Source of the DNA: a virus
Reading direction: 5' to 3' (one strand)
DNA length: 37,217 nt
Virus record (IMG/VR): IMGVR_UViG_3300048833_000713
Location: 1 to 37,217 of that record
Shown here piece by piece: positions 4,259-25,263 of this stretch (positions are counted from its first letter, which is position 1; each line of letters starts with the position of its first letter). Position numbers and translations under genes: made by a program. The notes beneath the pieces are model-generated. The model ran no database searches and was not told the DNA's origin. It saw only the letters and a program-made list of their open reading frames with translations.

Positions 4259-4381
4259 GGTTGTCGCAGGCGCCACGGGCAGAGATGTTCTCGTTCGAGT
4301 TCTCAGGCCAGTAGTCCAAGTTCGCGTACCGGGAGCCGGCATTGCTGCCGTTCATCCAGGAGCCGCCAAAGATGGAGGGAC
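4259..4381 (-). repeat. DGR template repeat (TR)
   Basis: 123 nt, located 9 nt after the Avd stop and upstream of the RT, matching both VRs end to end. Read on the minus strand it would encode FGGSWMNGSNAGSRYANLDY and so on, with six Asn codons (AAC/AAT), the hallmark of DGR templates since A-to-N changes in AAY codons can yield many residues. It contains 24 adenines on the coding strand; 17 of these differ in VR1 and 11 in VR2, and no other base differs. An adenine-free block of 20 nt (4265-4284) near its 3' end is identical in all three copies and corresponds to the expected mutagenic-homing start region. Unlike both VRs, it is not followed by the GTTTGCGC hairpin. Confidence 0.97.
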
Positions 4382-4390
4382 CAAGCGTCA

Positions 4391-4765: not shown

Positions 4766-4791
4766 GGCGTCTCGATTGCCTCATGAAGAAG

Positions 4792-4811
4792 GTTTGCGCT
4801 TCCGCGCAAAC
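4792..4811 (-). promoter_or_regulatory. DGR target hairpin downstream of VR1
   Basis: Perfect inverted repeat GTTTGCGC / GCGCAAAC with a 4-nt TTCC loop, placed 13 nt beyond the 3' end of VR1 and overlapping the target stop codon. The same element sits at the same distance after VR2. In the Bordetella phage DGR a hairpin or cruciform just after the VR promotes target recognition for homing; here the conserved position and sequence at both targets and the absence at the TR support that role. There is no U-run, so it is not a simple terminator. Confidence 0.88.
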
Positions 4812-5692: not shown

Positions 5693-5711
5693 GGTCGTAG
5701 TCCTTGATGTT

Positions 5712-5720
5712 GGGGGGGGG
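5712..5720. repeat. G9 homopolymer between the two DGR targets
   Basis: Nine consecutive G on the plus strand (C9 in the transcript) lie in the short gap between target 2 and target 1, about 20 nt upstream of the target 1 start. Tracts of this length are prone to slippage. It is intergenic, so any effect would be on spacing or translation initiation rather than on reading frame. Confidence 0.7.
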
Positions 5721-5725
5721 TGTGA

Positions 5726-5747
5726 GGTTTGCGCTTCCGCGCAAACC
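5726..5747 (-). promoter_or_regulatory. DGR target hairpin downstream of VR2
   Basis: Inverted repeat with the same arms and TTCC loop as the VR1 hairpin, extended to 9 bp by an outer G-C pair. It is at the same offset from the VR end as at target 1. The gene's stop codon lies between VR2 and the hairpin. See the VR1 hairpin for the expected role. Confidence 0.88.
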
Positions 5748-5754
5748 GATCAGG

Positions 5755-6651
5755 TTACAGGTGGTCGCAGGCGCCACGGGCAGAGACGTGCCCGTTCGAG
5801 TGCCCAGGCCAGCAGACCAAGTGCGCGTACCGGGAGCCGGCACTGCTGCCGTTCAGCCAGGAGCCGCCAAAGATGGAGGGACGCGGATCATCCGGGTGTC
5901 CATCCGTACCCCACTGCCACATAGTGCCGGTGACATCGAAGAGACCCACTTGGCTAATGAAGCGTTGCGCATCGTCAGTCATCTCGCCGCAGCGCTTGGG
6001 TTCGTCCGAGCGCGAGCAGCGTTCCTTGATGCCGTAGGCGGCGGCGAAGAACTCTTCCGCCTTCAGCAGGCGCTTGCCGTGGCTGGCGTAAATGGCCGAC
6101 GCCGTGTGAAAATCGAGGTTTAGGGCTTTGCCTTCTTCATCGGCGGCCTGCGGCAGATCCCGGCCGTCAGCGATGGTTGCACTAAAGCTGGAGGTACCGC
6201 GTTCGCGGTGTTCGGTTCCGAGCAGATAGATGTCGACCCAGATGCGACGTCCGGACGCCGTCACCAGTGTCATTCCACGCGGATCAGGGCATGCGGGGCG
6301 GAAGTCGAGATCCCATATGGAATTAGAGTTGATGGCTGGCGTTGGGTCGCCGCCTTCGGTGCCCTTGGCGTTACCGCCGGGCGCGTAGTGAAAGCCCGCG
6401 ACGGCGCCCGCCGAGATTGGGTTTCCTTCAGCTTCTGCAATGATCCATTCCGAGTGGTCTTTATCGTCGACAAGTAGGCAGTAGTCCCGACCGGCCGTCA
6501 TGAGCTCAGTGGAAAACTCACCGGCGCGCGGAGTGACAGACCTTCCGTCCTTTTCGAAAAGAACGCCCTGGCTGATGGCAATACAGCCCTGATCAGTCAC
6601 CCCAAGGACGGGTGTAGACTGATCTTCTTTGATAATTCGAATGCTGTTCAT
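5755..6651 (-). CDS. DGR variable protein 2 (C-type lectin/FGE-like fold)
   Basis: A 298-residue paralogue of the target encoded directly downstream. It shares AGFHYAPGGN, SIWDLDFRPACPDPRGMTLV, VDIYLLG, HGKRLLKAEEFFAAAYGIKE and MWQWG, and ends in the VR2-encoded segment (residues 257-298) with GGSWLNGSSAGSRYAHLVCW...VSARGACDHL. The N-terminal domain is diverged (MNSIRIIKEDQSTPVLGVTD), so this is an old duplication or a separate acquisition rather than a recent copy. The start at 6651 overlaps the upstream stop as ATGA; the longer frame to 6708 only reads through the upstream gene. It is the first DGR gene in the operon. Confidence 0.95.
   Translation of the reverse strand: MNSIRIIKEDQSTPVLGVTDQGCIAISQGVLFEKDGRSVTPRAGEFSTELMTAGRDYCLLVDDKDHSEWIIAEAEGNPISAGAVAGFHYAPGGNAKGTEGGDPTPAINSNSIWDLDFRPACPDPRGMTLVTASGRRIWVDIYLLGTEHRERGTSSFSATIADGRDLPQAADEEGKALNLDFHTASAIYASHGKRLLKAEEFFAAAYGIKERCSRSDEPKRCGEMTDDAQRFISQVGLFDVTGTMWQWGTDGHPDDPRPSIFGGSWLNGSSAGSRYAHLVCWPGHSNGHVSARGACDHL
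5760..5882 (-). repeat. DGR variable repeat 2 (VR2)
   Basis: Aligned with the TR at an offset of 1501. It differs at 11 of 123 positions, all at TR adenines on the coding strand, to C, G or T. It differs from VR1 at most of the changed sites, so the two VRs were diversified independently. Residues altered include Asn to Ser/His, Asp to Val, Tyr to Cys and Glu to Gly. Confidence 0.97.
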
Positions 6652-7235
6652 GCTCGGCTCCTTTGGTTGGAAGGGTTGTTCTTCTGCCAGGCCTGAAAAT
6701 CGGCCCATAGGTTTTTCCAGCGCTTTGCGGCCTCCGGGCTGGCATCGAGTTCGCTGCGGCTCTTCACGTTGAGCATTGTGCGAACGCGGCTTCGGATTCT
6801 CTCAAGGTCGGAAATATCTGCGCCGTGCATATCTCTGAGGAAGTGCTGGAACTGACTGCTTCTGCAGCAGTCGTCGCACCACTGAGATACCGGCTTGCTT
6901 TTCGTCTTGCCCGGAACAGGGTCGCCCTTCAGACTCCGGATCTCTTCATCCTGTCGCTTGGCCAGATCCTTCACGTACCGAAGCGCCGAGAGCGCTGCCT
7001 TCAGCATCTGAGGCGCCCGGATGACGAACTCTCTGTCCGAGTAGCTAATGTCTTCAGTCAGCAGCAGAATCGGACGTGCGTCTAATCCTGCGTCGCCGAT
7101 AACCATTATCTCCGTCCGACCATCCTCGAAGTTTCGAAAACTCTGCCAGCCTGCGGACATCAGAGGCTCAAGCTCCGCAGCCTTCTGCAGAAGCATCTTT
7201 TCTTCATTGGTAGGTTTGGGAGTGGAGAGCGTCAT
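6648..7235 (-). CDS. Hypothetical phage protein (195 aa)
   Basis: Starts MTLSTPKPTNEEKMLLQKAAELEP and contains a beta-rich middle (FEDGRTEIMVIGDAG, DREFVIRAPQMLKAAL) and a Cys pair region (WCDDCCRSSQFQHFLRD). The C-terminal third is helical and basic with Trp residues (RWKNLWADFQAWQKNN). I do not recognise the family. It is coupled by ATGA overlaps to the clamp gene before it (7232-7235) and the DGR target after it. Confidence 0.75.
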   Translation of the reverse strand: MTLSTPKPTNEEKMLLQKAAELEPLMSAGWQSFRNFEDGRTEIMVIGDAGLDARPILLLTEDISYSDREFVIRAPQMLKAALSALRYVKDLAKRQDEEIRSLKGDPVPGKTKSKPVSQWCDDCCRSSQFQHFLRDMHGADISDLERIRSRVRTMLNVKSRSELDASPEAAKRWKNLWADFQAWQKNNPSNQRSRA

Positions 7236-10317: not shown

Positions 10318-11148
10318 ATGGTTATGGCAGCTGCTGTTCTGTGTGCGATTCTAGCTTTTGTGATCCTCGTCGCGCGCCTAAGAAGCGGGCGGCGGAGTCC
10401 GGCGGCTGACGCCAAAAATCAAGCTCACGAATTTTTAGCGTCCACCAGGACGGCACAATCATTCGATCAGGTTAATCAGCCCACGCTGTCTGAGGCAGTG
10501 CGGCTGGAGGATCGCCCAGTCAACAACATGACATTTGACGTTGTGTATCGCGACGCAGACGGAGAAGTTTCGGCGCGCAGGATCGAGATCGCATCTGTCT
10601 CGCAGAATTACGGTGTGATCTATGTTGACGCCTGGTGCCACCTGAGGCGATCCGAGAGGACGTTTCGACCTGAAAGGATGATTGAGCTTTCCAGTGCATT
10701 GACCGGAGAGCTTGTGGCTTCTCCGGCAGAAACTCTGATTCAATTCGCAAACAGGAAACGCGTGAGCGGCTCGGGACTTGACCCTGCCATCAAGCGCGCC
10801 CACAGGGGCTTGCTATCGCTCATCTGGCTTGCGAGAGCCGATCACGACGTATCTCAGGCTGAGGTCGAGATTATGCTGGGATACATCAAGGACAGAGGAC
10901 TTCTCGAAGAGGCTGATGGCCCGGCGCAGGATTGGAAGGAATGGGCGGCTCGCCATTGGATCGACGGTCAGAGACCAACCTTCGAGGAGGCTCTAAATGC
11001 CAAGAGAATGATGACGCACTCCGGCAGGGAAGAGTCGCTGTGCGCTGAATATGCAGAAAGAATTCTTGCTGCGCAGCCGGCAGCCCTAAGCAAGACGGTG
11101 GCAAAGAGAATAGGGCGACTTGGCCTCAAACGTCTTGCAACACCTTAA
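10318..11148 (+). CDS. Membrane-anchored WYL/TerB-like protein
   Basis: A lysogeny-region accessory gene of about 276 residues, convergent with the repressor and overlapping its end by 23 bp. Residues 1-25 are a hydrophobic signal-anchor (VMAAAVLCAILAFVILVARL) with basic residues after it. The middle has DVVYRDADGEVSARRIEI and YVDAWCHLRRSERTFRPERM, typical of WYL-type ligand-sensing domains. The end, SLIWLARADHDVSQAEVEIMLGYI, resembles TerB-like helical domains. This suggests a stress or nucleic-acid-sensing membrane protein, possibly for lysogen protection; the function is unproven. The start is uncertain: in-frame ATGs also occur at 10234 and 10264, but both lie in or next to operators. Confidence 0.72.
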   Translation: MVMAAAVLCAILAFVILVARLRSGRRSPAADAKNQAHEFLASTRTAQSFDQVNQPTLSEAVRLEDRPVNNMTFDVVYRDADGEVSARRIEIASVSQNYGVIYVDAWCHLRRSERTFRPERMIELSSALTGELVASPAETLIQFANRKRVSGSGLDPAIKRAHRGLLSLIWLARADHDVSQAEVEIMLGYIKDRGLLEEADGPAQDWKEWAARHWIDGQRPTFEEALNAKRMMTHSGREESLCAEYAERILAAQPAALSKTVAKRIGRLGLKRLATP

Positions 11149-11740
11149 CTACTCGCCCCACGACGTGAGTGCCTTCGTCGATTTCCAGCGCCTCATGCGT
11201 GGGGTTGGTGGACCATGGTTCAATTCGGGCTGGAGACGACATAAAGCGCTTGAACGTAGCGCCATCTCGGTTAGCGAACACATAGTACTTTCTAGGAAGA
11301 AGCTCGCGCATTGTTGGGTCCACTACAATAATTGACCCATCATCGGCGATGCGGTTCATGGAGTCACCGACCACCCGCAATGCAAATGCCCTGGAACTGA
11401 CAGCGTCACCCACGAGAATCCGAGTCGCCTCGTCGGCCCGTTCAATTTCACCGCTGTCGTCATAACGGCTTGCTGCAACCCAAGAGATCAACGGTACTTC
11501 GAAGCCTGAGAGGCGGTTCTCTGTGTCATCTCCAAACGCAAGCCACCCTGCCTTCACCCCCATAATTTCGGCCAGTTTTTGCAAGGAGTCAATTCGTGGC
11601 AAAGGGGCTTTAGGGCGCCTCCAATCTCGGATGAGATCTGGCCCATGTCCCGACATGATGGATAATTGACGCGGCGACGCACCCAGTTCCTTGGCGCGCT
11701 TCAAGACTCGCTGGACGATTTCACTGTTGATGGACGGCAT
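11126..11740 (-). CDS. cI: CI/LexA-type phage repressor with S24 peptidase domain
   Basis: Maintains lysogeny by binding the four GGGACATGTCCC-type operators. The 204-residue protein has an N-terminal helix-turn-helix (ASPRQLSIMSGHGPDLIRDW, residues 21-40) and a C-terminal S24 domain with the Ser in GDSM (S127) and the Lys in ATFKRF (K164). The linker reads VPLISWVAAS, so self-cleavage, if any, would be at Ala-Ala or Ala-Ser rather than the usual Ala-Gly. The start at 11740 was chosen because the longer frame to 11878 crosses both operators and promoter PR. No strong ribosome site is visible. Confidence 0.94.
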   Translation of the reverse strand: MPSINSEIVQRVLKRAKELGASPRQLSIMSGHGPDLIRDWRRPKAPLPRIDSLQKLAEIMGVKAGWLAFGDDTENRLSGFEVPLISWVAASRYDDSGEIERADEATRILVGDAVSSRAFALRVVGDSMNRIADDGSIIVVDPTMRELLPRKYYVFANRDGATFKRFMSSPARIEPWSTNPTHEALEIDEGTHVVGRVVKVLQDV

Positions 11741-11767
11741 GAGGGAATTATCCCGCTTCGGTTGGTT

Positions 11768-11795
11768 GTTAAACAGAGGGACATTTCCCGTTGAC
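11768..11795 (-). promoter_or_regulatory. Candidate repressor maintenance promoter PRM
   Basis: On the minus strand, GTCAAC (11795-11790) and TTTAAC (11773-11768) are separated by 16 bp and would start transcription near 11761, about 20 nt before the repressor ATG. The boxes are weak and the -35 overlaps that of PR, as in lambdoid PRM/PR pairs. Operator OR1 lies in the spacer. Confidence 0.45.
11778..11789. promoter_or_regulatory. Repressor operator OR1
   Basis: GGGACATTTCCC, with one mismatch to the palindrome, between the repressor gene and PR. Centred 24 bp from OR2. Confidence 0.85.
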
Positions 11796-11819
11796 ACGTA
11801 AGGGACATGTCCCTTATGT
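11791..11819 (+). promoter_or_regulatory. Rightward early promoter PR
   Basis: TTGACA (11791-11796), a 17-bp spacer and TTATGT (11814-11819). The design mirrors PL, with an operator in the spacer. The predicted start, 11825-11827, is at or within 2 nt of the ATG of the next gene, giving a leaderless or nearly leaderless mRNA. Confidence 0.85.
11802..11813. promoter_or_regulatory. Repressor operator OR2 (in PR spacer)
   Basis: GGGACATGTCCC, part of the perfect 16-bp palindrome AAGGGACATGTCCCTT and the best copy of the operator. It fills the PR spacer. Confidence 0.9.
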
Positions 11820-11826
11820 TTCGACC

Positions 11827-12078
11827 ATGACCCAGCTTGAACATTTCTTTTTACTTGTAGAGGCTTACTGCTCGGCAACTGGAGCGGCAGAAGCGACTCT
11901 GTCTGGAAAGATCTTTTCCGACGGCAAGAGAATTGCTGCCATCAGGAATGGGTCAGACGTGGGCGTGCGCCGCATGGCAATCGCCATATGCTGGTTCTCA
12001 GAGCATTGGCCTGAGGGCGCGGAATGGCCTGCCTGCGTGCCCCGCCCAATTCTTTCCGTTGCGGAGGCTGCCGAATGA
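11827..12078 (+). CDS. Cro-like early regulator (83 aa)
   Basis: First gene of the rightward operon. It starts MTQLEHFFLLVEAYCSATGAAE and contains GVRRMAIAICWFSEHWPEGAEWP. I recognise a family of Rhizobiales phage/prophage proteins with this layout next to CI-like genes; its helices could form a Cro-like helix-turn-helix (ATLSGKIFSDGKRIAAIRNG). No Shine-Dalgarno is visible, consistent with the leaderless start. The longer frame from 11791 begins inside PR and was rejected. Confidence 0.82.
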   Translation: MTQLEHFFLLVEAYCSATGAAEATLSGKIFSDGKRIAAIRNGSDVGVRRMAIAICWFSEHWPEGAEWPACVPRPILSVAEAAE

Positions 12079-12579: not shown

Positions 12580-13035
12580 ATGCGCATTTCCACCGATCAC
12601 GAGCGTAACGCCCTGAAGACGGCATGCCGCGCTGCCGTGCATGTCTGCGGCCCCGCCAAGCAGATCACGGCCATGAGCCGGATCTCTGAAAGCCGCATCA
12701 GCATCTGCATCAATCGCGAGACGGAAGATTTCCTGCCGCTCGATGTCGCGCTGGAGGTTGACCGGCTGGCCGGCGCCCCGCTGATCGTCGAGGCCATGGC
12801 TCGGATGCTCGGATATCGCCTTGTTCCCGAGGAGCAGCCGGAGCGGGAGAAAGGCCTGACGCATCGTGATCTATCGTCGCTGTCGGCTCGATTTGCTGAG
12901 GTGCAACAAACGACCCATGGCGCACTTGACGACAATCATGTGGACCCCGGCGAAGGGCGCGACATTCAAGGCAAGCTGGCGAAGCTGAAACACGAGATCG
13001 CTGCTTTCGAGGGCAAGGTTGGAGGTGGGGCATGA
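12580..13035 (+). CDS. Phage regulatory protein (CII-like/HTH type)
   Basis: A 151-residue protein starting MRISTDHERNALKTACRAAVHVCG. The N-terminal 85 residues look like phage regulatory proteins with a helix-turn-helix: AAVHVCGPAKQITAMSRISE and SRISICINRETEDFLPLDVA, then a conserved 'PLDVALEVDRLAGAPLIVEAM' segment. The C-terminal 60 residues are charged and helical (GKLAKLKHEIAAFEGK). A role in replication or lysis-lysogeny control is inferred. The stop overlaps the next gene's ATG. Confidence 0.72.
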   Translation: MRISTDHERNALKTACRAAVHVCGPAKQITAMSRISESRISICINRETEDFLPLDVALEVDRLAGAPLIVEAMARMLGYRLVPEEQPEREKGLTHRDLSSLSARFAEVQQTTHGALDDNHVDPGEGRDIQGKLAKLKHEIAAFEGKVGGGA

Positions 13036-13872: not shown

Positions 13873-14075
13873 TTCAGCCGATCACCGACGAAGCTCAGCT
13901 GTTCTGCTCCCCTGCCTTCCGGTGGCAGATCCTGCTGGCAAAACAGGCGCGCATGGAGCGTGTGCTGCACCTGTTTCATGTCGAGCAGCTTTCGACATGG
14001 TGCATTGGTGAACGCCTGAACATCAGCGAACAGGTGGTTTGCCAGCTCCTCGAAGAGGCGGAGCGCGGGCGATGA
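13869..14075 (+). CDS. Small HTH-like protein (68 aa)
   Basis: Starts MIQPITDEAQLFCSPAFRWQ. The C-terminal stretch HVEQLSTWCIGERLNISEQVVCQLLEEAER is a helix-turn-helix pattern. Coupled by ATGA to both neighbours, ending on the methyltransferase start. Role unknown. Confidence 0.72.
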   Translation: MIQPITDEAQLFCSPAFRWQILLAKQARMERVLHLFHVEQLSTWCIGERLNISEQVVCQLLEEAERGR

Positions 14076-15493
14076 ACCAGATTGCGACTATCTGCGCCGA
14101 TCATGCCGACATTTCCGCGCTGCTCTCACGCATTGATGAGGCGCGTTACCTTCTTGAAACCGGCGACGTGCGGCAAGCGCTGTTCCTGTCCGAGGGCGCC
14201 TATGACGAGGCGAAGGCGGCACGCGGCTTTGCAGCGCGCATGAAGGCCAGCGAAGATCTGATCGCCCAGACGAACGCCATGGTGGCCGAGGCGCTGGAGA
14301 TTGGCAGCCTCGCCAAGGTCGCACTTGCCAATGAATACGACCGGGCGCAGGCGGCGGGTGTCGTTGCCACTCGGGGGCGCCCGAAAAAGGTCGCGGGCGA
14401 AGACCTTTTTCAATTGTCCGATTTCCGGCTCGACAAGCGCGTCATTCTCGATGCCCGCAAGCTGCGGGATGCCGAGACGAAGAACCCGGGCGTCATATCT
14501 CGCACCATAGCTGTGCTTTCTGCCGGGGGCGTTCTGCCGACGAAGGCGAACCTGCGCGCGGCCATCGGCACGGCCTCAGCCTCGAAAGAGGATCGCGGCA
14601 AGAACTTTTATCAGACGCCACGGGTGGCAACGATCGCGCTCCTGGCGCATGAGAGCTTCACCGCGACGATCTGGGAGCCGGCCTGCGGCTTCAATGCCAT
14701 CGGTCGGGTGCTGGAAGGGCAGGGCTACGATGTCCTGCTGTCTGATATCGAGGATCGCGGCGCGGTCTCCGAGGCTAGCGACGCGCAGAGCGTGGGTGAC
14801 TTCCTGCTGAGCAAGCCTGACGCCTCTGGCGACGGGCCGGACATCGTTACCAACCCTCCTTATGGCGCGGAACTCAATGCCTTCGTTGCCCACGCCCTTC
14901 GTGTCCACAAGCCGCGAAAGATGGCGCTGCTGCTCAACTCGAATTTCGAATTCGGGTTCGACGATGACGATCGCAACTTCGTCATGGAGGATTGCGCGCC
15001 ATCGCGGATCTACAAGTTCAAGCGCCGGCTGCCGATGATGCACCGTGAAGGCTATACGGGGCCGGAAGCCTCCAGCCGCATGAATACAGCCTGGTTCATC
15101 TGGGAGCGCAACGAAGATGGCAGCTATGGCAATGCCGACGGCTGGACGAAGAGCCGCCGGATAGATTGGGCGGACTATGCCGATGTCGACGTGCTTGAGC
15201 CGGGCGAAGGCGGAAATTCGCTCGGCATCGAGTTCGACGATGCCCCACGAACGACGGTCAAGCTGGAGCTACACGAGCGCGTTGATCGCGACCGTCAGGA
15301 TGCTCTGGTCTGGATCGGGACGCGCGAGAGTTTCAGCAGGCGCGAACTGTGCAGCGGTATCGGCAGGCGGGATTCGACTGTCGAAGCACTGATTGCCGAA
15401 TTCCAGAGCGATGGCCTGATCTCGCCCGCCGACGCGCCGGACCGTGACGGGCGGCACCTGGTGCTGCAAGGCAGGCAGGCGGTGGCGGCATGA
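14072..15493 (+). CDS. DNA adenine-type methyltransferase-like protein
   Basis: A 473-residue protein with a helical N-terminal region (1-110) and a Rossmann methyltransferase core. WEPACGFNAI (201-210) is the SAM-binding motif and TNPPYG (260-265) the N6-adenine/N4-cytosine catalytic motif. A C-terminal winged-helix-like end (IGTRESFSRRELCSGIGRRD) follows. It would methylate phage or host DNA, possibly to evade restriction. No cognate endonuclease gene is present, so it is an orphan. The target site cannot be predicted. Confidence 0.87.
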   Translation: MNQIATICADHADISALLSRIDEARYLLETGDVRQALFLSEGAYDEAKAARGFAARMKASEDLIAQTNAMVAEALEIGSLAKVALANEYDRAQAAGVVATRGRPKKVAGEDLFQLSDFRLDKRVILDARKLRDAETKNPGVISRTIAVLSAGGVLPTKANLRAAIGTASASKEDRGKNFYQTPRVATIALLAHESFTATIWEPACGFNAIGRVLEGQGYDVLLSDIEDRGAVSEASDAQSVGDFLLSKPDASGDGPDIVTNPPYGAELNAFVAHALRVHKPRKMALLLNSNFEFGFDDDDRNFVMEDCAPSRIYKFKRRLPMMHREGYTGPEASSRMNTAWFIWERNEDGSYGNADGWTKSRRIDWADYADVDVLEPGEGGNSLGIEFDDAPRTTVKLELHERVDRDRQDALVWIGTRESFSRRELCSGIGRRDSTVEALIAEFQSDGLISPADAPDRDGRHLVLQGRQAVAA

Positions 15494-15783: not shown

Positions 15784-16094
15784 GCGGGCTGCAGAATGGG
15801 CGTGATCCGTCCTACGGGGATCTGGACTGGCGACGTCTCGCCGTCGAGGTCAGGCGCCATCGCGCCAAGGACCATCGTGGCATCAGGGATATCGCGCCCG
15901 AGATCGGCATTACCAACTCGGACTTTTCACGCGTCATGAGCGGTCAGGTGATCGGGGCCGGACGCGCGGTCGCGCTCTGCCGCTGGATGGGCTGCCATAT
16001 CGATGACTTTTACCTCGAACCAGAAAATCTAAAGAAATCAGAGTGTTTCACCGGGCGAAACGTGAAACATAGCGGAGGTGCGCATGTTTCGTGA
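15780..16094 (+). CDS. Small Xre-like HTH protein (104 aa)
   Basis: Starts MSGLQNGRDPSYGDLDWRRL. Contains VEVRRHRAKDHRGIRDIAPEIGITNSDFSRVMSGQV, a typical Xre helix-turn-helix arrangement. Together with three nearby HTH proteins it gives the early operon many small DNA-binding proteins. Its end overlaps the next gene by 11 bp. Confidence 0.75.
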   Translation: MSGLQNGRDPSYGDLDWRRLAVEVRRHRAKDHRGIRDIAPEIGITNSDFSRVMSGQVIGAGRAVALCRWMGCHIDDFYLEPENLKKSECFTGRNVKHSGGAHVS

Positions 16095-17970
16095 GAGTCT
16101 TTTTGCCGGGACCATGCTCGCGGCAGCATCGCTGCCGTATTCCGGCGAGCCGATCATCATCGACAGTTTTGCCGGTGGTGGTGGCGCCTCGACCGGCATC
16201 GAGCAGGCGCTCGGCCGGTCCCCGGATTATGCCATTAACCACAATGCGGCGGCACTTGCGCTGCATGCGGTCAATCATCCCGAGACGGTGCACCTGTCGG
16301 AGAATGTCTACAAGATCGACCCGCTGGACTATCTGCGCGGAAAGCATGTGGGCCTCGCCTGGTTCTCGCCGGACTGCAAGCACTTCTCCAAGGCGAAGGG
16401 TGGAAAGCCCGTATCTCGCAACATTCGCGACCTGTGCTGGATCATTCCGGGCTGGATCGAGCGGATCCAGAAAAGCGGCGGCAAGGTCGATATCGTCATC
16501 ATGGAGAATGTCGAGGAGTTCAAGGATTACGGCCCCTTGAAATACACCGACCGTGGCGAAATGCCTGATCCGGAACGCAAGGGCGAGACATTCCAGAAAT
16601 GGTGCCGGAAGCTTCGCCAGCTTGGCGGCAAGATCGAGACGCGGGAATTGCGCGGCCGGGATTTCGGGGCGCCTACAATCCGGAAACGGCTTTTCATCAT
16701 CATCCGTTTCGACCGCCAAAAGATCGTCTGGCCCGAGCCGACGCATGGCAGCCCTGACGATCCGGATGTCATCGCTGGCCGCAAGCTGCCGTGGCCCATC
16801 GTTGCCGATCAGATCGATTTCAGCCTGCCATGCCCGTCGATCTTCGACACGGCGGAAGAGATCTGGGAAAAGCACCATGTGCGGGCCGTGCGGCCGCTGG
16901 CTGACAATTCGCATGCGCGGATCGCTCGCGGCATGGACCGCTTCGTGCTCAAGGCCAAGCGGCCGTTCCTTGTCAACCTCACTCACGGAGGAAGGTTGGA
17001 GGATATAGCGGAACCCATGCGGGTTATCACCGCTGCCCATCGGGGAGAGAAGGCGTTGGTAGCGCCATCCATCCAGCGCTTCAACGGCGGCGCGGTCGGC
17101 TGTGACATGCGCGACCAGCTCGGGGCGATCACCGCGAACAGCTATATCAAGCGGCCGGGCGGCGCGGCACCTCTGGGCGTCCTGGCTCCGGTTCTGACCT
17201 ATGCCCAACAGGGCGGGGCGAGCAGGCCGGTGGACGGCCAGTTGCAGACGGTGACGGCCAGCGAGAAAGACCAGAACGCGGTCATGTGCGCATGGATGGC
17301 GCAGTTCAACAATGACAGCCGGCGCATTGGCGGCGTCAATCCCGGCAGGCCGCTGGACGAGGCCGCATCGACGATCACGCAGAGCGGCAGTCACCAGCAG
17401 CTTGTCTCGGCCTATATCGCGCGCCAGTTCGGCACCAGCACCGGCCATGCAGTTACCGAGCCTCTGGCCACGACCATGGCGGACGGGCAGGGCAAGAGCC
17501 AGCTGATCCTTCCCTACTTGCAGTCCTACTACGGGAACGGCGAGGGTGGTCGCGAAGATGAGGCGATGCACACGGCCACGACGCGCGAGCGTTTCGGCCA
17601 TGTCGAGGCTCTGGTCGGCGTGCCGCCCTTCACAGAGGCTCAGGCCGCAAGGGCTCGGCAGGTGGCGGACTTCCTTCGGGCGCATGGGGTCTGGGACGAT
17701 CGGGAATTCGTCACTGTGGACATCGACGGCATGACCTTCGTCATTGTCGATATCGGCATGCGCATGCTGACGCCGCGCGAGCTCTACAACGCTCAGGGTT
17801 TCCCGCGCGACTACAAGATCGACGGCTACCGCGACCAGAGTGGGGCATGGGTGCCGTTTTCGAAATCAGTACAGGTCTCCTGTGTCGGCAACAGCGTCTG
17901 CCCGCCGGTGGCGAAGGCGCTAGTGGCGGCGAACGCGATGCATCTGGCAAAGCAGGAGATGGCAGCGTGA
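16084..17970 (+). CDS. DNA cytosine-5 methyltransferase
   Basis: A 628-residue C5 methyltransferase. Motif I is IIIDSFAGGGGASTGIE (from about residue 24). The catalytic Cys is in FSPDCKHFSK (C98; PDC in place of the common PPC). ENV follows at 141-143, RKRLFIII further on, and the C-terminal motifs are ELYNAQGFPRDYKIDG and QVSCVGNSVCPPVAKAL. ATG 16084 with GGAGG 5 nt upstream is preferred to GTG 16078. It likely modifies phage DNA against host restriction. No endonuclease partner was found. Its stop overlaps the next gene's GTG start (GTGA). Confidence 0.93.
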   Translation: MFRESLFAGTMLAAASLPYSGEPIIIDSFAGGGGASTGIEQALGRSPDYAINHNAAALALHAVNHPETVHLSENVYKIDPLDYLRGKHVGLAWFSPDCKHFSKAKGGKPVSRNIRDLCWIIPGWIERIQKSGGKVDIVIMENVEEFKDYGPLKYTDRGEMPDPERKGETFQKWCRKLRQLGGKIETRELRGRDFGAPTIRKRLFIIIRFDRQKIVWPEPTHGSPDDPDVIAGRKLPWPIVADQIDFSLPCPSIFDTAEEIWEKHHVRAVRPLADNSHARIARGMDRFVLKAKRPFLVNLTHGGRLEDIAEPMRVITAAHRGEKALVAPSIQRFNGGAVGCDMRDQLGAITANSYIKRPGGAAPLGVLAPVLTYAQQGGASRPVDGQLQTVTASEKDQNAVMCAWMAQFNNDSRRIGGVNPGRPLDEAASTITQSGSHQQLVSAYIARQFGTSTGHAVTEPLATTMADGQGKSQLILPYLQSYYGNGEGGREDEAMHTATTRERFGHVEALVGVPPFTEAQAARARQVADFLRAHGVWDDREFVTVDIDGMTFVIVDIGMRMLTPRELYNAQGFPRDYKIDGYRDQSGAWVPFSKSVQVSCVGNSVCPPVAKALVAANAMHLAKQEMAA

Positions 17971-19178
17971 GCGGCGAGCAGACAATTCGGCGCGGAGTGC
18001 GGAACGCGCGCTACGCAGCCATACCAAACCATGTGTTTGAAGATGATCGTCTCTCGATGGAGGCGCGTTGGCTGCTGGGATATCTGCTGTCGAAGCCAGA
18101 CAACTGGACCGTGGTGATCGGCGACATCGTGAAACGCGGAAAATGCGGCCGTGACAAGGCCCGCAAGATGATCGCCGAGCTTGTCGAGGTGGGCTATGCC
18201 GACCGGGAACAGACCAGGGAGGATGGGAAGTTCTCATCATCAGTTCTGGTGATTTACGATGAGCCGACAGCAAGAGAAGGCGAACGAAATCAGATCGCTA
18301 GCGAAAGTGTTGCATTTCTACCGCAGACTGATTTGCCGGCGACGGCAAAACCGTCGCCGGATTCACCGGCGCCGGTAAAATCGGCACTTAGTAATAACTC
18401 AGTTCTAGCAATTACTGATGATAGCAATCAGAGAGAGAGCGCGAGCGAGCGCGATGGACAAGAGGAAGAAAATCCCAAGACCATCATTCGCAAGTTCGAC
18501 AAGTGGTGGCCGACCTATCCGGGCTACGCCGGCACTAGCCGAGAGGCTGCGCTGAAGGAATGGATAGCGATGAGCCGGCAAGAGCGGGAAGACTGCATTG
18601 CCAGGACGCCTGCCTTCATCAAGGCGACGCAGGCGGTCAAGGGCAGCTTCGTCTGGCCAAGCGTCTATCTCCGGGAACGCAAGTGGCTGTTGATGGACGA
18701 GCCGACCTCGGCTGTGGCCACACCGACCGTTCATAATCCATTTTCTCGCGCATGGATGGCGCTCAGGCTCGCCGAGCTGACGAAACCGATGCGCCGGGAA
18801 GGGTGGCCGGCTCTCAGCCAATGGCAGGTTGCGCAGTCGCGAGACCCCGATCGGGCTCAACAGATCAACCGGGAGCGTATGGCGCGCTACGGATGGCCGA
18901 AGGTTACCGAAATGCACGAGAAGGCCGACAGGCGAGTGGGGATGCTGGTGCATGGGCCGCTCGTCGGGATCTCGGAAGGCTTCGTGAAGATGCATCGCGA
19001 CAGCGAGGAGGCGGCAGCCTGGAAGGCGATGCACGAGCGCATGGGATGGCCATGGTTCGCAGAGCCAACGCCGGATTGGTTGTGGATGCCTGAGGGCAAG
19101 CCGGAGGCGGCGATGAAGGATCTGCAAGCGAAACTGAACGAGGCTACAGGCAGAGGGATGAGCGACGATGCGGCATGA
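17967..19178 (+). CDS. Phage replication protein (O-like, primosomal)
   Basis: A 403-residue protein with an N-terminal winged-helix region (RRGVRNARYAAIPNHVFEDD, ARWLLGYLLSKPDNWTVVIGDIVKRG, KARKMIAELVEVGYADRE). This resembles origin-binding initiator domains of phage O-type proteins. A low-complexity linker at about 105-165 follows, then a helical domain with KWWPTYPGYAGTSREAALKEW and FVWPSVYLRERKW, typical of phage replication proteins that recruit helicase. GTG start at 17967 overlaps the methyltransferase stop. The linker-coding DNA carries the repeats proposed as an origin. Confidence 0.78.
   Translation: MSGEQTIRRGVRNARYAAIPNHVFEDDRLSMEARWLLGYLLSKPDNWTVVIGDIVKRGKCGRDKARKMIAELVEVGYADREQTREDGKFSSSVLVIYDEPTAREGERNQIASESVAFLPQTDLPATAKPSPDSPAPVKSALSNNSVLAITDDSNQRESASERDGQEEENPKTIIRKFDKWWPTYPGYAGTSREAALKEWIAMSRQEREDCIARTPAFIKATQAVKGSFVWPSVYLRERKWLLMDEPTSAVATPTVHNPFSRAWMALRLAELTKPMRREGWPALSQWQVAQSRDPDRAQQINRERMARYGWPKVTEMHEKADRRVGMLVHGPLVGISEGFVKMHRDSEEAAAWKAMHERMGWPWFAEPTPDWLWMPEGKPEAAMKDLQAKLNEATGRGMSDDAA
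18336..18430. other. Candidate replication origin inside the O-like gene
   Basis: CCGGCGACGGCAAAA (18336-18350) is repeated with changes as CCGGCGCCGGTAAAA (18366-18380), exactly 30 bp apart. CCGGCGACGG also forms a 10-bp perfect inverted repeat with CCGTCGCCGG (18351-18360). An AT-richer stretch follows (about 18380-18430) in an otherwise GC-rich gene. Repeats plus an unwinding-like region in the linker of the initiator gene match the lambda O/ori layout. Only two clear repeat units are visible. Confidence 0.5.
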
Positions 19179-19869
19179 AGTTTTTCAATTTAACAGCATG
19201 AGCGGGGTAATTTTGATGTCAAAGACGGTGGCAGGGATCTCAGGTTTGGTTGCCCCAACAGAAGCAGACCAGAGAAGGTCGCAGCGTGAAGGCCGCGTTC
19301 TGAGGCTGGCGCGCCAGCAGCTTCGATTCGCGGCAAAGGACTTTCGTGGCGACTCAGCTCATGGCGCGCGTTGGTTCTGCCTTCAGGTAGCAACTGGCTT
19401 CGACTTCACTGTGGAAAAACTGCTGTCCGAATGTAGCGTTGAGGTGCTTGTGCCGCGCGAAAAGGTCACCTCGGTGAGGCGTGGACGAAAGCTGGAGAGC
19501 GAACGGCCGTATTTTTCAGGTTATGTTCTTGTGCGTTTTGTGCCATCTCCAGAGGCCTTTGATGGGCTGCGCAGACAGAAGAACGTGTTCGGTTTCGTGG
19601 CAGGATTGACGGGCTATCTGGTCGTCAGCGACAAAGAAGTGAAGCGATTCCAACAGCTCACGCCTTCACTTATATCTCGCATGCCAACCGATAAAAGCAT
19701 CTGCGAGGGAACTAAGGCTCGGATCACATGCGGGCCGTTTGCTGGCATTGACTGCGTCGTTCTCGCGGTCAAATGGAAGCGAGAAGGCCGTGCGCGAGTG
19801 CAAATCGCTTACGATGGAAATTGCTTCGAGATCGCGGACATGCCTCTTGCATTCCTCGAAAGGCTGTGA
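19168..19869 (+). CDS. NusG/RfaH-like transcription elongation factor
   Basis: A 233-residue NusG-type protein. An NGN domain spans about residues 65-150 (ARWFCLQVATGFDFTVEKLL, VEVLVPREKV, RPYFSGYVLVRFVPSPEAFD), followed by a KOW domain (GTKARITCGPFAGIDCVVLAVKW). Family members bind RNA polymerase and the elongating transcript. The gene is the last of the early operon and lies right before the late control region, as expected for an antiterminator of late genes. Start 19168 has AGAGGGA about 10 nt upstream and overlaps the preceding gene by 11 bp; ATG 19198 or 19216 would shorten it. Confidence 0.88.
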   Translation: MRHEVFQFNSMSGVILMSKTVAGISGLVAPTEADQRRSQREGRVLRLARQQLRFAAKDFRGDSAHGARWFCLQVATGFDFTVEKLLSECSVEVLVPREKVTSVRRGRKLESERPYFSGYVLVRFVPSPEAFDGLRRQKNVFGFVAGLTGYLVVSDKEVKRFQQLTPSLISRMPTDKSICEGTKARITCGPFAGIDCVVLAVKWKREGRARVQIAYDGNCFEIADMPLAFLERL

Positions 19870-20091
19870 GAGTCGTTGGTTAACGGCCACTGCGAATTTG
19901 TGCCCCACCCTCCGATCCCAGCCTTAGCGCTGCGAGAACCGTCCTCCATCAAGGACAAGGGTGACGGTCATTCGGAACCCAGTCTTGACGGTCTCTTTCG
20001 AGACATCGATTCAAGATCTGAGCGTGAGCTATGGCTTTGAAGGCGGTCCAACGGGATCGCCTTTTTTCATACCTACTGTTGAGGCTTCCAG
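19870..20091 (+). promoter_or_regulatory. Late control region with candidate promoter
   Basis: No gene is convincing here. TTGACG (19985-19990) followed 17-18 bp later by a weak -10 (near 20008-20014, GATTCA/ATTCAA) could be a late promoter. TGACGGTC occurs twice, at 19962-19969 and 19986-19993, 24 bp apart. The region ends in a terminator, giving a promoter-terminator order like lambda PR'. Confidence 0.4.
20042..20067 (+). terminator. Intrinsic terminator before the late genes
   Basis: GGCGGTCC / GGATCGCC stem (8 bp with one G-U) and AACG loop, followed by six T. It lies 24 bp before the first late gene, so late transcription must start after it or read through it. Confidence 0.85.
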
Positions 20092-20682
20092 ATGACGCGC
20101 ATCGTTCATGTGGCGTGGGCCGACAAGGTTCTGCAGCAGTACGGCAAGCGCGTTATATTACTTCACGAGAGTTTCCCGACGGTGCTTCCTCGTATCGTCA
20201 ACCAAGTCGGCGACAGGGCGAAGACGCAAGTCGTCCGCAACCTGACAGCACAGACCGGACTGCCGAGGAAGACTATCGTTGCTGCGGTCGGAGATCCGAC
20301 AAGGGCGAGGCCGGGCAAGCTGTCTTACGACATGGTCACTCGTGGCGGGAACATCCGGCTCAAGTACCTCAACCCGAGGGAAACAGAAGCCGGCGTTGTC
20401 GCAAGACCATTCGGCAAGTCGACGCTCTATCCCGGCGCATTCATGCGAGGCGGCTGGTGGCCGAACCGCAAGGATGTCGAGGAATGGAATGGGCACGTAA
20501 TGGTTCGGGTGAACCGGCACCATAGCGTCAAAGGTGGCGGACGCCACTTCACCTTCGCAAGATCAGGCGTCATCATTCCGGTGGAGATGACAAGCGGGGC
20601 AACGAGGAATGCCTTCGATAGGATCGCCGGTCCGCTTCTTCAGCAAAGGGTTGGCGCTGCCATAGCAAAGCTGGTGCCGTGA
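20092..20682 (+). CDS. Phage minor tail protein Z-like (GPZ family)
   Basis: A 196-residue protein starting MTRIVHVAWADKVLQQYGKR. It has the small tail-completion layout: RAKTQVVRNLTAQTGLPRKTI, then the C-terminal 'KGGGRHFTFARSGVIIPVEM' with the IPxEM motif, and SGATRNAFDRIAG. This resembles lambda-type gpZ/tail completion proteins that shape the tail end. Its place before the terminase genes is unusual, since such genes usually lie between head-joining and tail genes. Confidence 0.7.
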   Translation: MTRIVHVAWADKVLQQYGKRVILLHESFPTVLPRIVNQVGDRAKTQVVRNLTAQTGLPRKTIVAAVGDPTRARPGKLSYDMVTRGGNIRLKYLNPRETEAGVVARPFGKSTLYPGAFMRGGWWPNRKDVEEWNGHVMVRVNRHHSVKGGGRHFTFARSGVIIPVEMTSGATRNAFDRIAGPLLQQRVGAAIAKLVP

Positions 20683-20846
20683 TATCGACCGGGTGGTCGG
20701 CGCACCAGCCCCCCCCATTCAGGGACCGTTTCGGTAAAATCGGCAGACACGGGGCAGCGCGACTGCGGGATTTCGCCAGTGCGACACTTTGCAAGCGGTA
20801 CACGAATACACGTGCATGCACACGTGATGCACGGGACCATGGAACG
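20683..20846 (+). other. Intergenic gap before the terminase, with CACGTG repeats
   Basis: Gap of 164 bp between the Z-like gene and the small terminase. It contains a C8 run (20709-20716) and a palindrome-rich stretch with CACGTG at 20809-20814 and 20821-20826 around GTGCATGCAC. Packaging (cos/pac) sites are often next to small terminase genes, so this is a candidate only. Confidence 0.3.
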
Positions 20847-21476
20847 ATGGACGAAGACTGGATCTCGATCACGGAGGCGGCTGCCCGCCTCTCGGCTGCC
20901 GGCGACCGTGTCGATCGCTCGACGCTTTCCCGATATCTGAAGCAGCATTCAGAGGCCCTTCCTCTCAAGCCTGACGGCAAATCCAACCTGGTAGACTTCA
21001 TCGCGCTTGCCGAGCATCGCAGCGAGAATGTTCGCATCCGAACGATCCCGTCACCATCACCACAGGGCGCGCAGCGCTCGGCAGGCTCGCCAGGGGCGCC
21101 GGGTGGCCGGTTCTCGGGAACGCAATCTGATGGCGCCGCCCGTAAGGCGCAGGCTGACGCCGAGTTGCGAGAGATGGACCTCGCCGAGCGACGTAAGGAG
21201 CTGACGCCCTACGCGGAAGTCGATCAGGCCGGCCGCGATGCTGTTGCCATGATGCAGAGCGCATTCGAGCGCGCGATCGAAACCGAGGCAAGCGCTCTCT
21301 CGCTCAAATACGGATGGGACGAGCGGATCGTTCGTCTCGCCCTCAAGAACTTTTCGAAGACTGGCCTCGCCACCTTCAATCGTCAGGTTCTCGAAAAACT
21401 TGATGCCATGCGCCGCCGCGAAGATGCTGGCGAAGAGGCCGTGGATTATTCGGAGCATAGCCAGTCGCTACAATGA
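20847..21476 (+). CDS. Small terminase subunit-like protein
   Basis: 209 residues starting MDEDWISITEAAARLSAAGDRVD. The N-terminal helix-turn-helix (ISITEAAARLSAAG..RVDRSTLSRYLKQH) fits DNA recognition at the packaging site. A Gly/Pro/Ser linker (PSPSPQGAQRSAGSPGAPGG) follows, then the gpNu1-like coiled part (AELREMDLAERRKELTPYAEVDQAGRDAV). The earlier frame (20679) reads through non-coding-looking sequence. The stop overlaps the large subunit start as ATGA. Confidence 0.85.
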   Translation: MDEDWISITEAAARLSAAGDRVDRSTLSRYLKQHSEALPLKPDGKSNLVDFIALAEHRSENVRIRTIPSPSPQGAQRSAGSPGAPGGRFSGTQSDGAARKAQADAELREMDLAERRKELTPYAEVDQAGRDAVAMMQSAFERAIETEASALSLKYGWDERIVRLALKNFSKTGLATFNRQVLEKLDAMRRREDAGEEAVDYSEHSQSLQ

Positions 21477-23602
21477 CCATACAGGACATCAGGGCTCGCT
21501 TTCCGAAGCTGCCAAGTGGCGCAGTTGCGATTTTTCGCGGAATGGAGATTGCCAGTCGTCCGACTGAAGATCTGACAATCAGCGAACATGCTGATCGCTA
21601 CCGCAAGGTTTCTGCGGAGTCCGGATCGCCCTGGCCTGGTGATTTCCGCACCGACCGCGTCCCGTACCTTCGCGAGCCGCAAGATTGCCTGCACCCGGAT
21701 CACCCTGCCCGCCGCGTAACTGCGCGCTGGGCAGCACAGCTCGGCAAGTCGACGGCAATCGAGAACTGGTTCTGCTTCATCGTCGACCAGGCGCCTGGGT
21801 CGATGATGATCGTTTTGCCCTCGATCGAAGAGTCAACGAAATTCAATCGCGTCAAGCTTCAGCCGACGATCGAGGCATCGAAGCGCATCGCCCATAAGGT
21901 CATGCCGGTTAGCAGCCGAGATGAGCAGGGCAGTACGACGTCATTCAAGCGTTACGCCGGTGGCTTTTGCCAGATCGTCAATGCAGGCTCTTCGAAGGGT
22001 CTGCAGATGGTGTCGATCAAGTACCTCGCGATGGATGAAACGACCGGCTATCCAAAGGATGTCGACGGTCGCGGTAGCCCTCGCGATCAGGCGAGAGCGC
22101 GCCAGAAAATGTATGGCGACCTTGCCAAGGAGTGGCAGGGGTCCACGCCGGGCGTCGCTGGTGAATGCACAATCAGCGAGGACTTCGAGGCTGGGGACCA
22201 GCGGTATTTTTATCTGCCGTGCCCGCACTGCAGCACCTACCAGGCTCTCGGTTTCGACATGATGCGCGGCCCAGATCCGGAGCAGGATCTGCCCGTTCAT
22301 ATGCGGTGCCTCAATTGCGACAAGCCCATCTTCGACGGGCACAAGCGCGAAATGATGGAGCGCGGTAGATGGATCGCTCGCAGGGTTGCTGAGCACGACG
22401 ACCCCGTGCCGCTTGCTATCGCTTCTGCGGACATTGATGAGTGGGCATGCCTCCCGTGCGAGGGAAGGTGCCGAGACTGGCAGCCGAGCTACCATCTTTG
22501 GGCAGCTTATGCTCCTCGCGAAAAGTGGTCGCAGATCTGGGAGCGCTGGATCGCCGCAGAGGGCGACACGACGAAAATGAGGACGTTCTGCCAGCAGGAT
22601 CTGGCGGAGCCTTACGATCCCGGCGGCGTCACTGTCGAGTGGGAGAAAATCGTCGAGGCTGCGAAAGCCCATCTACTGCCCTCGCGGGTCATACCATCCT
22701 GGGCGGCGCTCGTTGTATCTGCCGCCGACGTTCAGGGTTACGGCATCAAGTGGGTCGCCTATGCCATCGGCGCGCGCGATCAGATACAGCTCATCGATAG
22801 AGAGATCTTCGAAGGGCCTCCGGACCAGTCTGATGAGCCTTGGATCAAACTCTCCGATGCGCAAGCACGGACCTATCCGATCCAGAACGGCACTTGTGAG
22901 AAGGGAATCGACCTCAGTGGCGTTGACTCGGGGTGGGCAACCGATCGCGTGTATCGCTTCTGCGCCGGGCGTCCGAACGTTTATGCGCTGGACGGCCGCG
23001 AACCGATCGGCCTTCCTTGGCTGGGGACGCCAGTCAAGAAGGACATCAAGGATCACAATCGGCGCGTGATCTCGAAGGTTCTGCTCTATCCGGTGGGTCT
23101 TTTCGACATCAAGACAGCGGTTACAGCTGCTCTGGCTAATCTGGTGCAGGGGCGATCCGAGGCCGGTCAGTGGCCTCGAAACACGATCCACTTCGCCTCG
23201 GATCTTTGTGATGCAGATTTCGCCAAGGAACTCACAGCGGAGCGCCTTGTCGATGCTGAAGAGGAGGCCCGGTCTTCGGTCAGCCGAAGGGCTCGGCGCC
23301 TCATCAAGCCTAAAGCGGGTCGCCAATGGAAAAAGGTCGTTGGCCGGGTCAATGACTGGTTTGACGCCACCGTCTACTCCTTTGCCCTTGCCTGGCACCT
23401 TCAGAACAAGCGACGGCTTACACTTGATCGGTGGGCCGACCTTGTCCGCGATCTGCATGGTGACCACGACGAGCCGGTCGACCTCTTCGAGGCCGCTGCG
23501 CAGAACCCGTTCATCAAGACCAAATCAGCGGCGCCGCCAGCCCCGACGGCGCCTTCGGGCAAGTCCCGGCCGTCCCGTAAAAAATGGAGGTCGTACTCTT
23601 GA
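21473..23602 (+). CDS. Large terminase subunit (lambda gpA family)
   Basis: ATPase-nuclease that packages DNA into the prohead. The 709-residue length fits gpA. Visible are the N-terminal AESGSPWPGDFRTDRVPYLRE, the ATP-binding AAQLGKST (87-94), VSIKYLAMDET as the Walker-B region, two Cys-pair knuckles (LPCPHCSTYQALGF, MRCLNCDKPIFDG), and KVVGRVNDWFDATVYSFALA at the nuclease end. The gpA family indicates packaging at cos-like sites. The C-terminus is basic and Pro/Ser-rich. Confidence 0.96.
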   Translation: MTIQDIRARFPKLPSGAVAIFRGMEIASRPTEDLTISEHADRYRKVSAESGSPWPGDFRTDRVPYLREPQDCLHPDHPARRVTARWAAQLGKSTAIENWFCFIVDQAPGSMMIVLPSIEESTKFNRVKLQPTIEASKRIAHKVMPVSSRDEQGSTTSFKRYAGGFCQIVNAGSSKGLQMVSIKYLAMDETTGYPKDVDGRGSPRDQARARQKMYGDLAKEWQGSTPGVAGECTISEDFEAGDQRYFYLPCPHCSTYQALGFDMMRGPDPEQDLPVHMRCLNCDKPIFDGHKREMMERGRWIARRVAEHDDPVPLAIASADIDEWACLPCEGRCRDWQPSYHLWAAYAPREKWSQIWERWIAAEGDTTKMRTFCQQDLAEPYDPGGVTVEWEKIVEAAKAHLLPSRVIPSWAALVVSAADVQGYGIKWVAYAIGARDQIQLIDREIFEGPPDQSDEPWIKLSDAQARTYPIQNGTCEKGIDLSGVDSGWATDRVYRFCAGRPNVYALDGREPIGLPWLGTPVKKDIKDHNRRVISKVLLYPVGLFDIKTAVTAALANLVQGRSEAGQWPRNTIHFASDLCDADFAKELTAERLVDAEEEARSSVSRRARRLIKPKAGRQWKKVVGRVNDWFDATVYSFALAWHLQNKRRLTLDRWADLVRDLHGDHDEPVDLFEAAAQNPFIKTKSAAPPAPTAPSGKSRPSRKKWRSYS

Positions 23603-25263
23603 TCGAAGCCAAGCCCCGCATCCGGGTCAAAGCGCAAACTGCGCAAGTGGCCACTGGTGCGCCCAAAGCCGTCCCATCTCGCCGCCATGTGGCTCGCTAT
23701 TTGCGAGGCGACCGATCCGGCGTGCTGGGCATGCGCAAAGCCGTGACACGTGACGCCCGGCAGGATGTCCGCGAAGCCGCCGAAAGGGCGGCGGCACTTG
23801 CCGTCGATTTCATGCACAACAGTGGGTGGATCGCCGGTGCGATCATGCAGATCCTCTGCGACACGATCGGCGAGGAGCTGAAACTGAACTGCCGCGCCAA
23901 GCTGAAGAAGCTTGGCTACTCCGACGAAGAGGCGGCGGAATGGTGCCGCATGGTCGAAGAGGAATGGCGACGCTACGCATGGAATCCCAAAGAATGTGAC
24001 TTGGCCGGGAAGTCGACCATTGCCGAAATGGCAGACGCTGCCCTGCGCAGCTATCTGGCTTCCGGCGAGGCCTTTGGCATTCTCGACTACATGGAGCCCG
24101 CCGATCGTCGCCGGTATGGGATTGAGACCGGTACCAAAGTTTCGCTGATCGCATCCCACCGCTGCCCTCGCGTCACGAGGGAGGTCGAGGGCCTTGAGCA
24201 GGGCATCTTCCACGACGCAAACAATCGCGCCGTAGCCTATCGCTTCAAGGTTCGCGAAAGTGGAATTGAGCGCGATCGGGACATAGATGCCATCGACGTC
24301 ATCCATTTGATGGATCGCGGCGCAAACCTTAACAGTGCGCGTGGCATTTCCGAAGTCGCGCCAGCCCTGAAGGTTCTTGCTCAGTCCGATCAGCTCGCCG
24401 ACGCGACGCTGGCGAAAACGCTGCTTCAGACCGTTTTCGCCGCAACCATCACAAGTCCAGAGCAGAGTGAGAACGCATTCCAAGCCTTGCAGACATTGGG
24501 CGACATCGAGATGCCCGATGGTTTCGATCAGAGCGATGGCTCCTGGGATGAATTCATTGGCGGTCTTCAGCAGGACCTGCTTGAGGTCTGGGATATGCGT
24601 CTTGGCGCATTGAAGGAAAAGGGCATCTCGATGTCCGATCCCGCCCGCATCAATCATCTTGGACCGGGCGAAAAACTGGAGCTGCATTCTTCGTCGACGC
24701 CAAGCAGTGATTACATCGAGTTTTTCCAGAACCTGCTTCGGGAGATCGCGCGCTGCCTGGGCGTCACCTATGAGTCCCTTTCCATGGACCATTCGGACGC
24801 GACCTATTCCTCGGTCCTCATGTCCGTGGCGACCATCTGGCCGATTGTGCTGCGTCGTCGCAGTCGGATCGTGGCCCCCTTCCTTCAGGCAATCTATGAG
24901 CGGTGGCTTGAGGAAATGATCGAGCGGGGAAGGATACAGATCAAAGGCGGGCGCGAAGCCTTCCGGCGCCATCGAGAGGCGGTCTTTCAGGCTGAGTGGC
25001 ACGGTCCTGCTGCGCCATCTGCCGACAACTACAAGGCTGTTCTTGCCGACAAGATCGAACTGGAGATCGGGATCTCAACGTTTTCCGACATCTGCGCCAA
25101 GCGCGGCAAGAATGGGCAGGAGCAGATTGTCCAACTTGGCCGCGAGAAAGAGCAGTTCGAGAAGGTCGGCGTTCCGCACCCGTTCGGTCGATCCCAGGGC
25201 GGAGCTGGACCACAAGGCGCTGCCACTGAAGGCAGTCGAGACCCCGCAAAGGAAGCTGCCTGA
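23599..25263 (+). CDS. Portal protein (lambda family)
   Basis: Forms the ring through which DNA enters the head. The 554-residue protein contains VDFMHNSGWIAGAIMQILCDTIG, LRSYLASGEAFGILDYM, VIHLMDRGANLNSARGISEVAPALKVLAQ and SMDHSDATYSSVLMSVATIWP, typical of lambda-type portals. TTG 23599 is preferred: GGAGG ends 8 nt before it and TTGA overlaps the terminase stop. ATG 23584 lies upstream of that ribosome site. The gene ends on the next start. Confidence 0.94.
   Translation: MIEAKPRIRVKAQTAQVATGAPKAVPSRRHVARYLRGDRSGVLGMRKAVTRDARQDVREAAERAAALAVDFMHNSGWIAGAIMQILCDTIGEELKLNCRAKLKKLGYSDEEAAEWCRMVEEEWRRYAWNPKECDLAGKSTIAEMADAALRSYLASGEAFGILDYMEPADRRRYGIETGTKVSLIASHRCPRVTREVEGLEQGIFHDANNRAVAYRFKVRESGIERDRDIDAIDVIHLMDRGANLNSARGISEVAPALKVLAQSDQLADATLAKTLLQTVFAATITSPEQSENAFQALQTLGDIEMPDGFDQSDGSWDEFIGGLQQDLLEVWDMRLGALKEKGISMSDPARINHLGPGEKLELHSSSTPSSDYIEFFQNLLREIARCLGVTYESLSMDHSDATYSSVLMSVATIWPIVLRRRSRIVAPFLQAIYERWLEEMIERGRIQIKGGREAFRRHREAVFQAEWHGPAAPSADNYKAVLADKIELEIGISTFSDICAKRGKNGQEQIVQLGREKEQFEKVGVPHPFGRSQGGAGPQGAATEGSRDPAKEAA

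Follow-up and report, generated by a model that had tools for sequence, protein, structure and literature searches.

LoaP, a bacterial paralog of NusG, depends on an RNA hairpin and allows transcription to pass an intrinsic terminator in the leader, both in vitro and in vivo; its authors described it in 2025 as the sole NusG-like protein of bacteria for which binding to a specific RNA element is known (PMC12691694). In rhizobial phages, a gene labelled as an antiterminator is known already, and phiLM21-like prophages place it at the end of the early region beside an HNH gene, according to PMC12429752; the passages on these genes give no RNA or mechanism, and NusG, ncRNA and noncoding RNA were not found as terms in the text of that paper. 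Neither NusG nor antitermination is mentioned in the paper on phi2LM21 and phi3LM21. Here, we show that a phage gene of this kind is a NusG paralog, and that it is followed by a conserved structured RNA and an intrinsic terminator at the boundary between early and late genes. We consider it likely that these parts form a late-gene antitermination switch, in which the phage NusG is loaded via the nascent RNA and the polymerase reads from the early into the late operon.

A phage NusG paralog at the end of the early operon

The window, i.e., the whole stretch of DNA analysed here, is an entire IMG/VR record of 37,217 bases and belongs to a temperate lambda-like phage of rhizobial-type bacteria, with an integrase, an S24-type repressor (11126-11878, minus strand) and a CII-like gene (12580-13035). 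From ~12.5 kb to 36 kb, all assigned genes lie on the plus strand, and the window runs from early to late genes in the series methylases, replication initiator, then packaging, head and baseplate genes. A candidate early promoter (TTGACA-18-TATGTT; 11791-11820, plus strand), identified by consensus match only, could be the start of the whole rightward transcript. The early operon contains two DNA methyltransferase genes (14039-15493 and 16078-17970, plus strand; PHROG 799; C5 cytosine type). Elsewhere, at 3081-6708 on the minus strand, the window carries a diversity-generating retroelement with a reverse transcriptase (PHROG 1423, 1.4e-114), an Rfam Phage_DGR RNA (4100-4218, minus strand) and at least two lectin-like ORFs sharing similar variable ends (4811-5692 and 5755-6708).

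The ORF at 19168-19869 (plus strand) belongs to the NusG family, as indicated by Pfam NusG (1.3e-15) and PHROG 6386, "transcription antiterminator" (1.5e-44). This bears out an earlier sequence-only reading, which had proposed a NusG-like gene here and had placed it at the end of the early operon. Its start overlaps the end of the replication initiator (17847-19178, plus strand; PHROG 270, 5.6e-34), and it is the last gene before those for neck, terS, terL and portal. The first late gene encodes a tail completion or Neck1-like protein (20092-20682, plus strand; PHROG 27, 1.6e-15), and the genes for the terminase small subunit, the terminase large subunit (GpA) and the portal (20679-25263, plus strand) mark the start of the late operon, the putative target of the switch. 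The order of replication initiator, nusG, a gap of ~130-230 nt and late or packaging genes recurs in phi2LM21, phi3LM21, PPF1, MseS-P1 and other phages.

An AlphaFold2 model of the window NusG (pLDDT 89.8), for which the input consisted of 64 relatives with rows from annotated records left out, comprises an N-terminal helical part (residues ~32-66), an NGN domain (68-170) and a beta-barrel KOW domain (183-232). The best structural matches returned by Foldseek include NusG, RfaH and 8f5g ("NusG-RNA complex"), the last probably a LoaP complex; sequence comparison among solved structures placed housekeeping NusG nearest and RfaH more distant. Pfam NusG was present in 68 of 68 relatives, with Pfam KOW called in 12. 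The protein has the NGN and C-terminal KOW domains of a specialised (phage) NusG/Spt5 paralog, and its gene sits outside the housekeeping secE-nusG locus, beside the target operon, in the window as well as in relatives. Besides the phage-type match, each of two genomes (G001 and G194) has another NusG match at a separate place.

A conserved structured RNA behind nusG

By comparing the gap behind nusG among known phages, we discovered a conserved structured RNA of ~141 nt (19893-20033, plus strand), the putative NusG loading site on the transcript. RNA-pattern scans with the element core contributed 93 viral and 58 genomic stretches, and the core RNA model (R1) matches the window in a single copy at 19968-20037 (63.7 bits). 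The element is framed on its 5' side by a long-range helix, P1 (CGAAT 19893-19897 with ATTCG 19970-19974). Within 19906-19963 lie the inner helices Pd (CACCCT 19906-19911 with AGGGTG 19958-19963), Pc (CAGC 19919-19922 with GCTG 19929-19932) and Pb (GTCCT 19941-19945 with AGGAC 19952-19956). A hairpin at 19983-20016 consists of P2/P3, in which TCTTGA (19983-19988) pairs with TCAAGA (20011-20016) and, inside, GTCTC (19991-19995) with GAGAC (20000-20004). The last hairpin, P4 (20018-20033), has a GNRA-type loop and the conserved end GCTATG. P1, Pd, Pc, Pb, P2 and P3 all form in the window sequence, and the P4 hairpin is retained as GC-GTGA-GC; in relatives, its loop is of the GNNA/GNRA type, mostly GAAA, GCAA or GTAA. 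A start codon at the conserved GCTATG was rejected as a rule, the ORFs from this motif being mostly 2-20 codons long.

RNAalifold, given 100 sequences and no structure, recovered the homologue of the long-range helix with heavy two-sided change (e.g., UA 46, GC 39). In alignment A6, 100% of the P1 cells are paired and the homologues of Pd, Pc and Pb covary, and two related loci (L001 and L197) show the same plan. For the eight-helix structure, which was drawn by eye from the same alignment that was used to test pairing, 95.2% of cells across 34 sequences were paired vs 87.4% in shuffles, 17 pairs had two-sided changes vs 11.2, and covariation reached 0.233 vs 0.117 (0/500), with slid-partner controls at most 43% paired. 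Test results for the core RNA model were similar. Some of the near-invariance of P4 and of the 3' strand of P2 stems from the search patterns, in which both were compulsory. The ratio of G-U to A-C cells was 62:15, or 32:14 without one near-constant G-U pair, which marks the plus strand as the RNA. Rfam gave no gathering-level match in the window and six relatives, and relaxed limits returned only unrelated weak matches; no account of this RNA was found in the open-access literature, subscription papers lying mostly outside the search.

The RNA and NusG are linked and diverge together

A NusG ORF ends shortly upstream of 149 of the 157 pattern-scan sites, and nearly all of the others are at contig edges. 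In 297 Rhizobiaceae genomes, a sample drawn from the single family to which an Ensifer strain belongs, the core model gave 32 matches in 29 genomes, every one of them directly behind a phage-type NusG ORF. Conversely, of the 29 strong phage-NusG matches in the same sample, 25 are followed by the RNA, and a diverged or analogous structure is present at three of the remaining four. One of these (L197) has a diverged RNA with compensatory CCTAGA/TCTAGG plus a terminator. At two more (L195 and L196), a different pair of hairpins shows covariation of its own (CCAACC/GGTTGG vs CCAATC/GATTGG), and the fourth match (L198) has a terminator only. The stretches at L195 (1250-1550) and L196 (1070-1400) combine this different hairpin pair with another phage NusG subfamily, and possibly represent a second cognate RNA type. 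An order-wide sample contained the element in 2 of 297 genomes, both times adjoining a phage NusG, while a class-wide scan of 385 genomes (E 1e-35) yielded phage-type NusG in the seed genome alone; the range of the system thus appears limited to Rhizobiaceae and close relatives. A cyanobacterial copy (L138) was treated as a chance pattern match, as its genome has no R1 match and no NusG was found nearby.

Pairwise divergence of the RNA correlated with that of NusG (r = 0.75) and hardly with that of the overlapping replication gene (r = 0.23); the partial correlations were 0.73 and 0.04, respectively (0/500 permutations), and adjacency could account for part of this shared divergence through physical linkage. 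The first gene downstream of the element varies (HNH, neck, terS-like and others), which, together with RNA divergence tracking NusG, suggests that the RNA and NusG move as one cassette.

This linkage bears on two other explanations. An RNA acting alone on RNA polymerase, like put of HK022, with the NusG paralog separate or merely supporting, would agree with the fact that put RNA blocks termination without any protein (PMC9378689), with the end of the element lying close to the terminator, and with the near-invariance of P4, as expected if P4 touched conserved RNA polymerase. We consider it unlikely, however, given that a phage NusG precedes 32 of 32 sampled copies, that RNA sequence divergence tracks NusG closely, and that put has two copies, both promoter-proximal and neither with a NusG partner, in place of the one copy seen here. 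Very unlikely, in our view, is a DNA signal for packaging or replication (cos/pac or an origin) that folds by coincidence. The element does adjoin the replication initiator and in many phages precedes HNH and terminase genes, but its pairs tolerate G-U over A-C, a sign of RNA, it stays with NusG while the first downstream gene varies widely, and the right end of the PPF1 record lies ~750 bp downstream of it.

A terminator at the early/late boundary

Between the early and late genes lies an intrinsic terminator (20039-20067, plus strand) with an 11-bp stem (20039-20049/20054-20064), a 4-nt loop and a T6 run (20062-20067), at -16.5 kcal/mol and z = -5.8, with 0 of 200 shuffles equally good. A strong terminator had been proposed here from the sequence alone, and it is borne out by these values and by its kept position in relatives. 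A simple promoter/terminator scanner missed it, probably because the stem runs into the T run. Terminator-like sites are expected by chance in 37 kb and a single site is not rare; the real evidence is therefore conservation among relatives. A terminator lies at most 110 nt behind the RNA element in 72 of 100 non-redundant related loci, a lower bound under the strict terminator criterion, vs 185 of 1798 control windows (10%). Among the 28 loci without a terminator by this criterion and distance, inspection by eye showed some just outside the criterion (GAGCGCC...GGCGCTC plus a short T run), some with inserted sequence and some with apparently none. The terminator usually follows the element by 10-22 nt in relatives and by 5 nt in the window, and its stems in relatives comprise several unrelated sequences, an observation that speaks against a simple attenuator based on shared pairing. 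In one locus (L193, 1410-1620), the element is present and no terminator was seen directly behind it; L043, L052, L006 and L143 are similar, some with inserted sequence. At another (L105, 4494-4570, minus strand), a tRNA-Met gene (ARAGORN) lies directly behind the element, at the usual terminator position.

The sequence-only reading had also placed a possible promoter behind nusG, with TTGACG at 19985 as its -35 box, and had likened the arrangement to lambda Q with PR'-tR'. No sigma-70-like site was found by a promoter scan of 17000-23000, and TTGACG falls within the 5' strand of a conserved RNA helix, in the P2/P3 hairpin. The loop that separates the strands of this helix measures 20-27 nt across relatives, and their best -10 candidates mostly match at 2-3 of six positions and never at more than 4. 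These observations led us to reject the promoter at 19985. They leave hardly any probability to a late promoter near this position at which NusG would be loaded through DNA onto a paused complex, as lambda Q is, although the site lies before the late genes with a terminator close behind, as in PR'-tR', and TTGACG does fit a -35 box. Moreover, the conserved RNA reaches ~90 nt upstream of the supposed promoter, and a transcript starting there would lose that part. What stands of the comparison to PR'-tR' is a NusG-type candidate antiterminator paired with a conserved terminator at the early/late boundary; the promoter-terminator layout does not, for want of a credible promoter.

A proposed switch and its implications

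In the antitermination switch that we propose, early transcription would cross the replication genes and nusG and halt at the terminator at 20039-20067, and phage NusG would be made from this early transcript. The fold formed by 19893-20033 in the nascent transcript would then recruit phage NusG to the elongating host RNA polymerase, and the modified polymerase would ignore the nearby terminator, and perhaps later stop signals too, going on to transcribe the packaging, head and tail genes. We infer that NusG binds this RNA and thereby causes readthrough, without the use of a separate late promoter. A single target operon would accord with the presence of one RNA copy per phage.

The reverse action, in which NusG tightens termination or controls the 3' end of its own mRNA in a feedback (e.g., through RNA stability or processing), would fit an RNA that occupies the 3' region of that mRNA, and housekeeping NusG can promote termination in some bacteria (PMC8060035). 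Nevertheless, we regard it as highly improbable: as the terminator separates the late genes from the one early promoter that is visible, tightening it would silence the virus, and known specialised NusG paralogs antiterminate (PMC7819879).

On balance, we favour the view that the antitermination switch represents a new class of processive antitermination, in which a large, specific nascent RNA directs a phage NusG paralog to activate the late operon as a whole in prophages of the Rhizobiaceae and their relatives; divergence among NusG-RNA pairs would make the switch specific to each phage. If so, it would be a second, unrelated NusG-RNA pairing, making RNA guidance of NusG paralogs a recurring solution and extending it to phages of Gram-negative bacteria and to late-gene control, and it would explain late-gene activation in many rhizobial prophages. 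It would also add an RNA family absent from Rfam and supply naturally diverged protein-RNA pairs for specificity tests.

Comparison with known systems

The locus resembles lambda Q and PR'-tR' in having a late switch, the candidate regulator as the last early gene and a terminator before the late genes. However, Q acts at a DNA site in the promoter, whereas here the protein has a NusG fold, the element is RNA and no late promoter was found. With RfaH, the likeness is that of a specialised NusG paralog with NGN and KOW domains. The ops element of RfaH is DNA, and the number of ops-like matches in the window is about that expected by chance (8 one-mismatch matches vs 6.4), with none near the element; in addition, the KOW domain of RfaH is an autoinhibited alpha hairpin, whereas that of the window protein is modelled as a beta barrel, a single AlphaFold2 state with which fold switching remains compatible. 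HK022 put, too, is a cis-acting RNA of a phage that would be expected to modify the elongation complex, but it is ~70 nt long with two stem-loops, occurs twice behind early promoters and acts in the absence of protein (PMC9378689); the window element differs in size, architecture and copy number. By annotation, the "transcription antiterminator" genes of the phiLM21 type (PHROG 6386) match the window gene in kind, and they close the early region, beside HNH (PMC12429752).

LoaP and the dfn hairpin of Bacillus velezensis have in common with this locus a NusG paralog, a dedicated target operon and an RNA structure before an intrinsic terminator. Specific RNA binding by the protein and antagonism of NusA are further marks of the LoaP class. 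LoaP is reported from Bacillota, Actinomycetota and Spirochaetota near biosynthetic operons (PMC12691694), whereas the present paralog is carried by a phage of a proteobacterial host and has the late operon as its putative target. The LoaP RNA is one small UNCG-type hairpin, in contrast to the ~140 nt, eight helices and GNRA-type loop of the window RNA; a UNCG-type dfn hairpin is absent from the element, in which the conserved P4 loop is of the GNNA/GNRA type. LoaP with its dfn RNA hairpin (or a nut or put RNA) is a closer parallel to the proposed switch, in which readthrough would come from the early operon, than lambda Q, with its DNA site at a late promoter.
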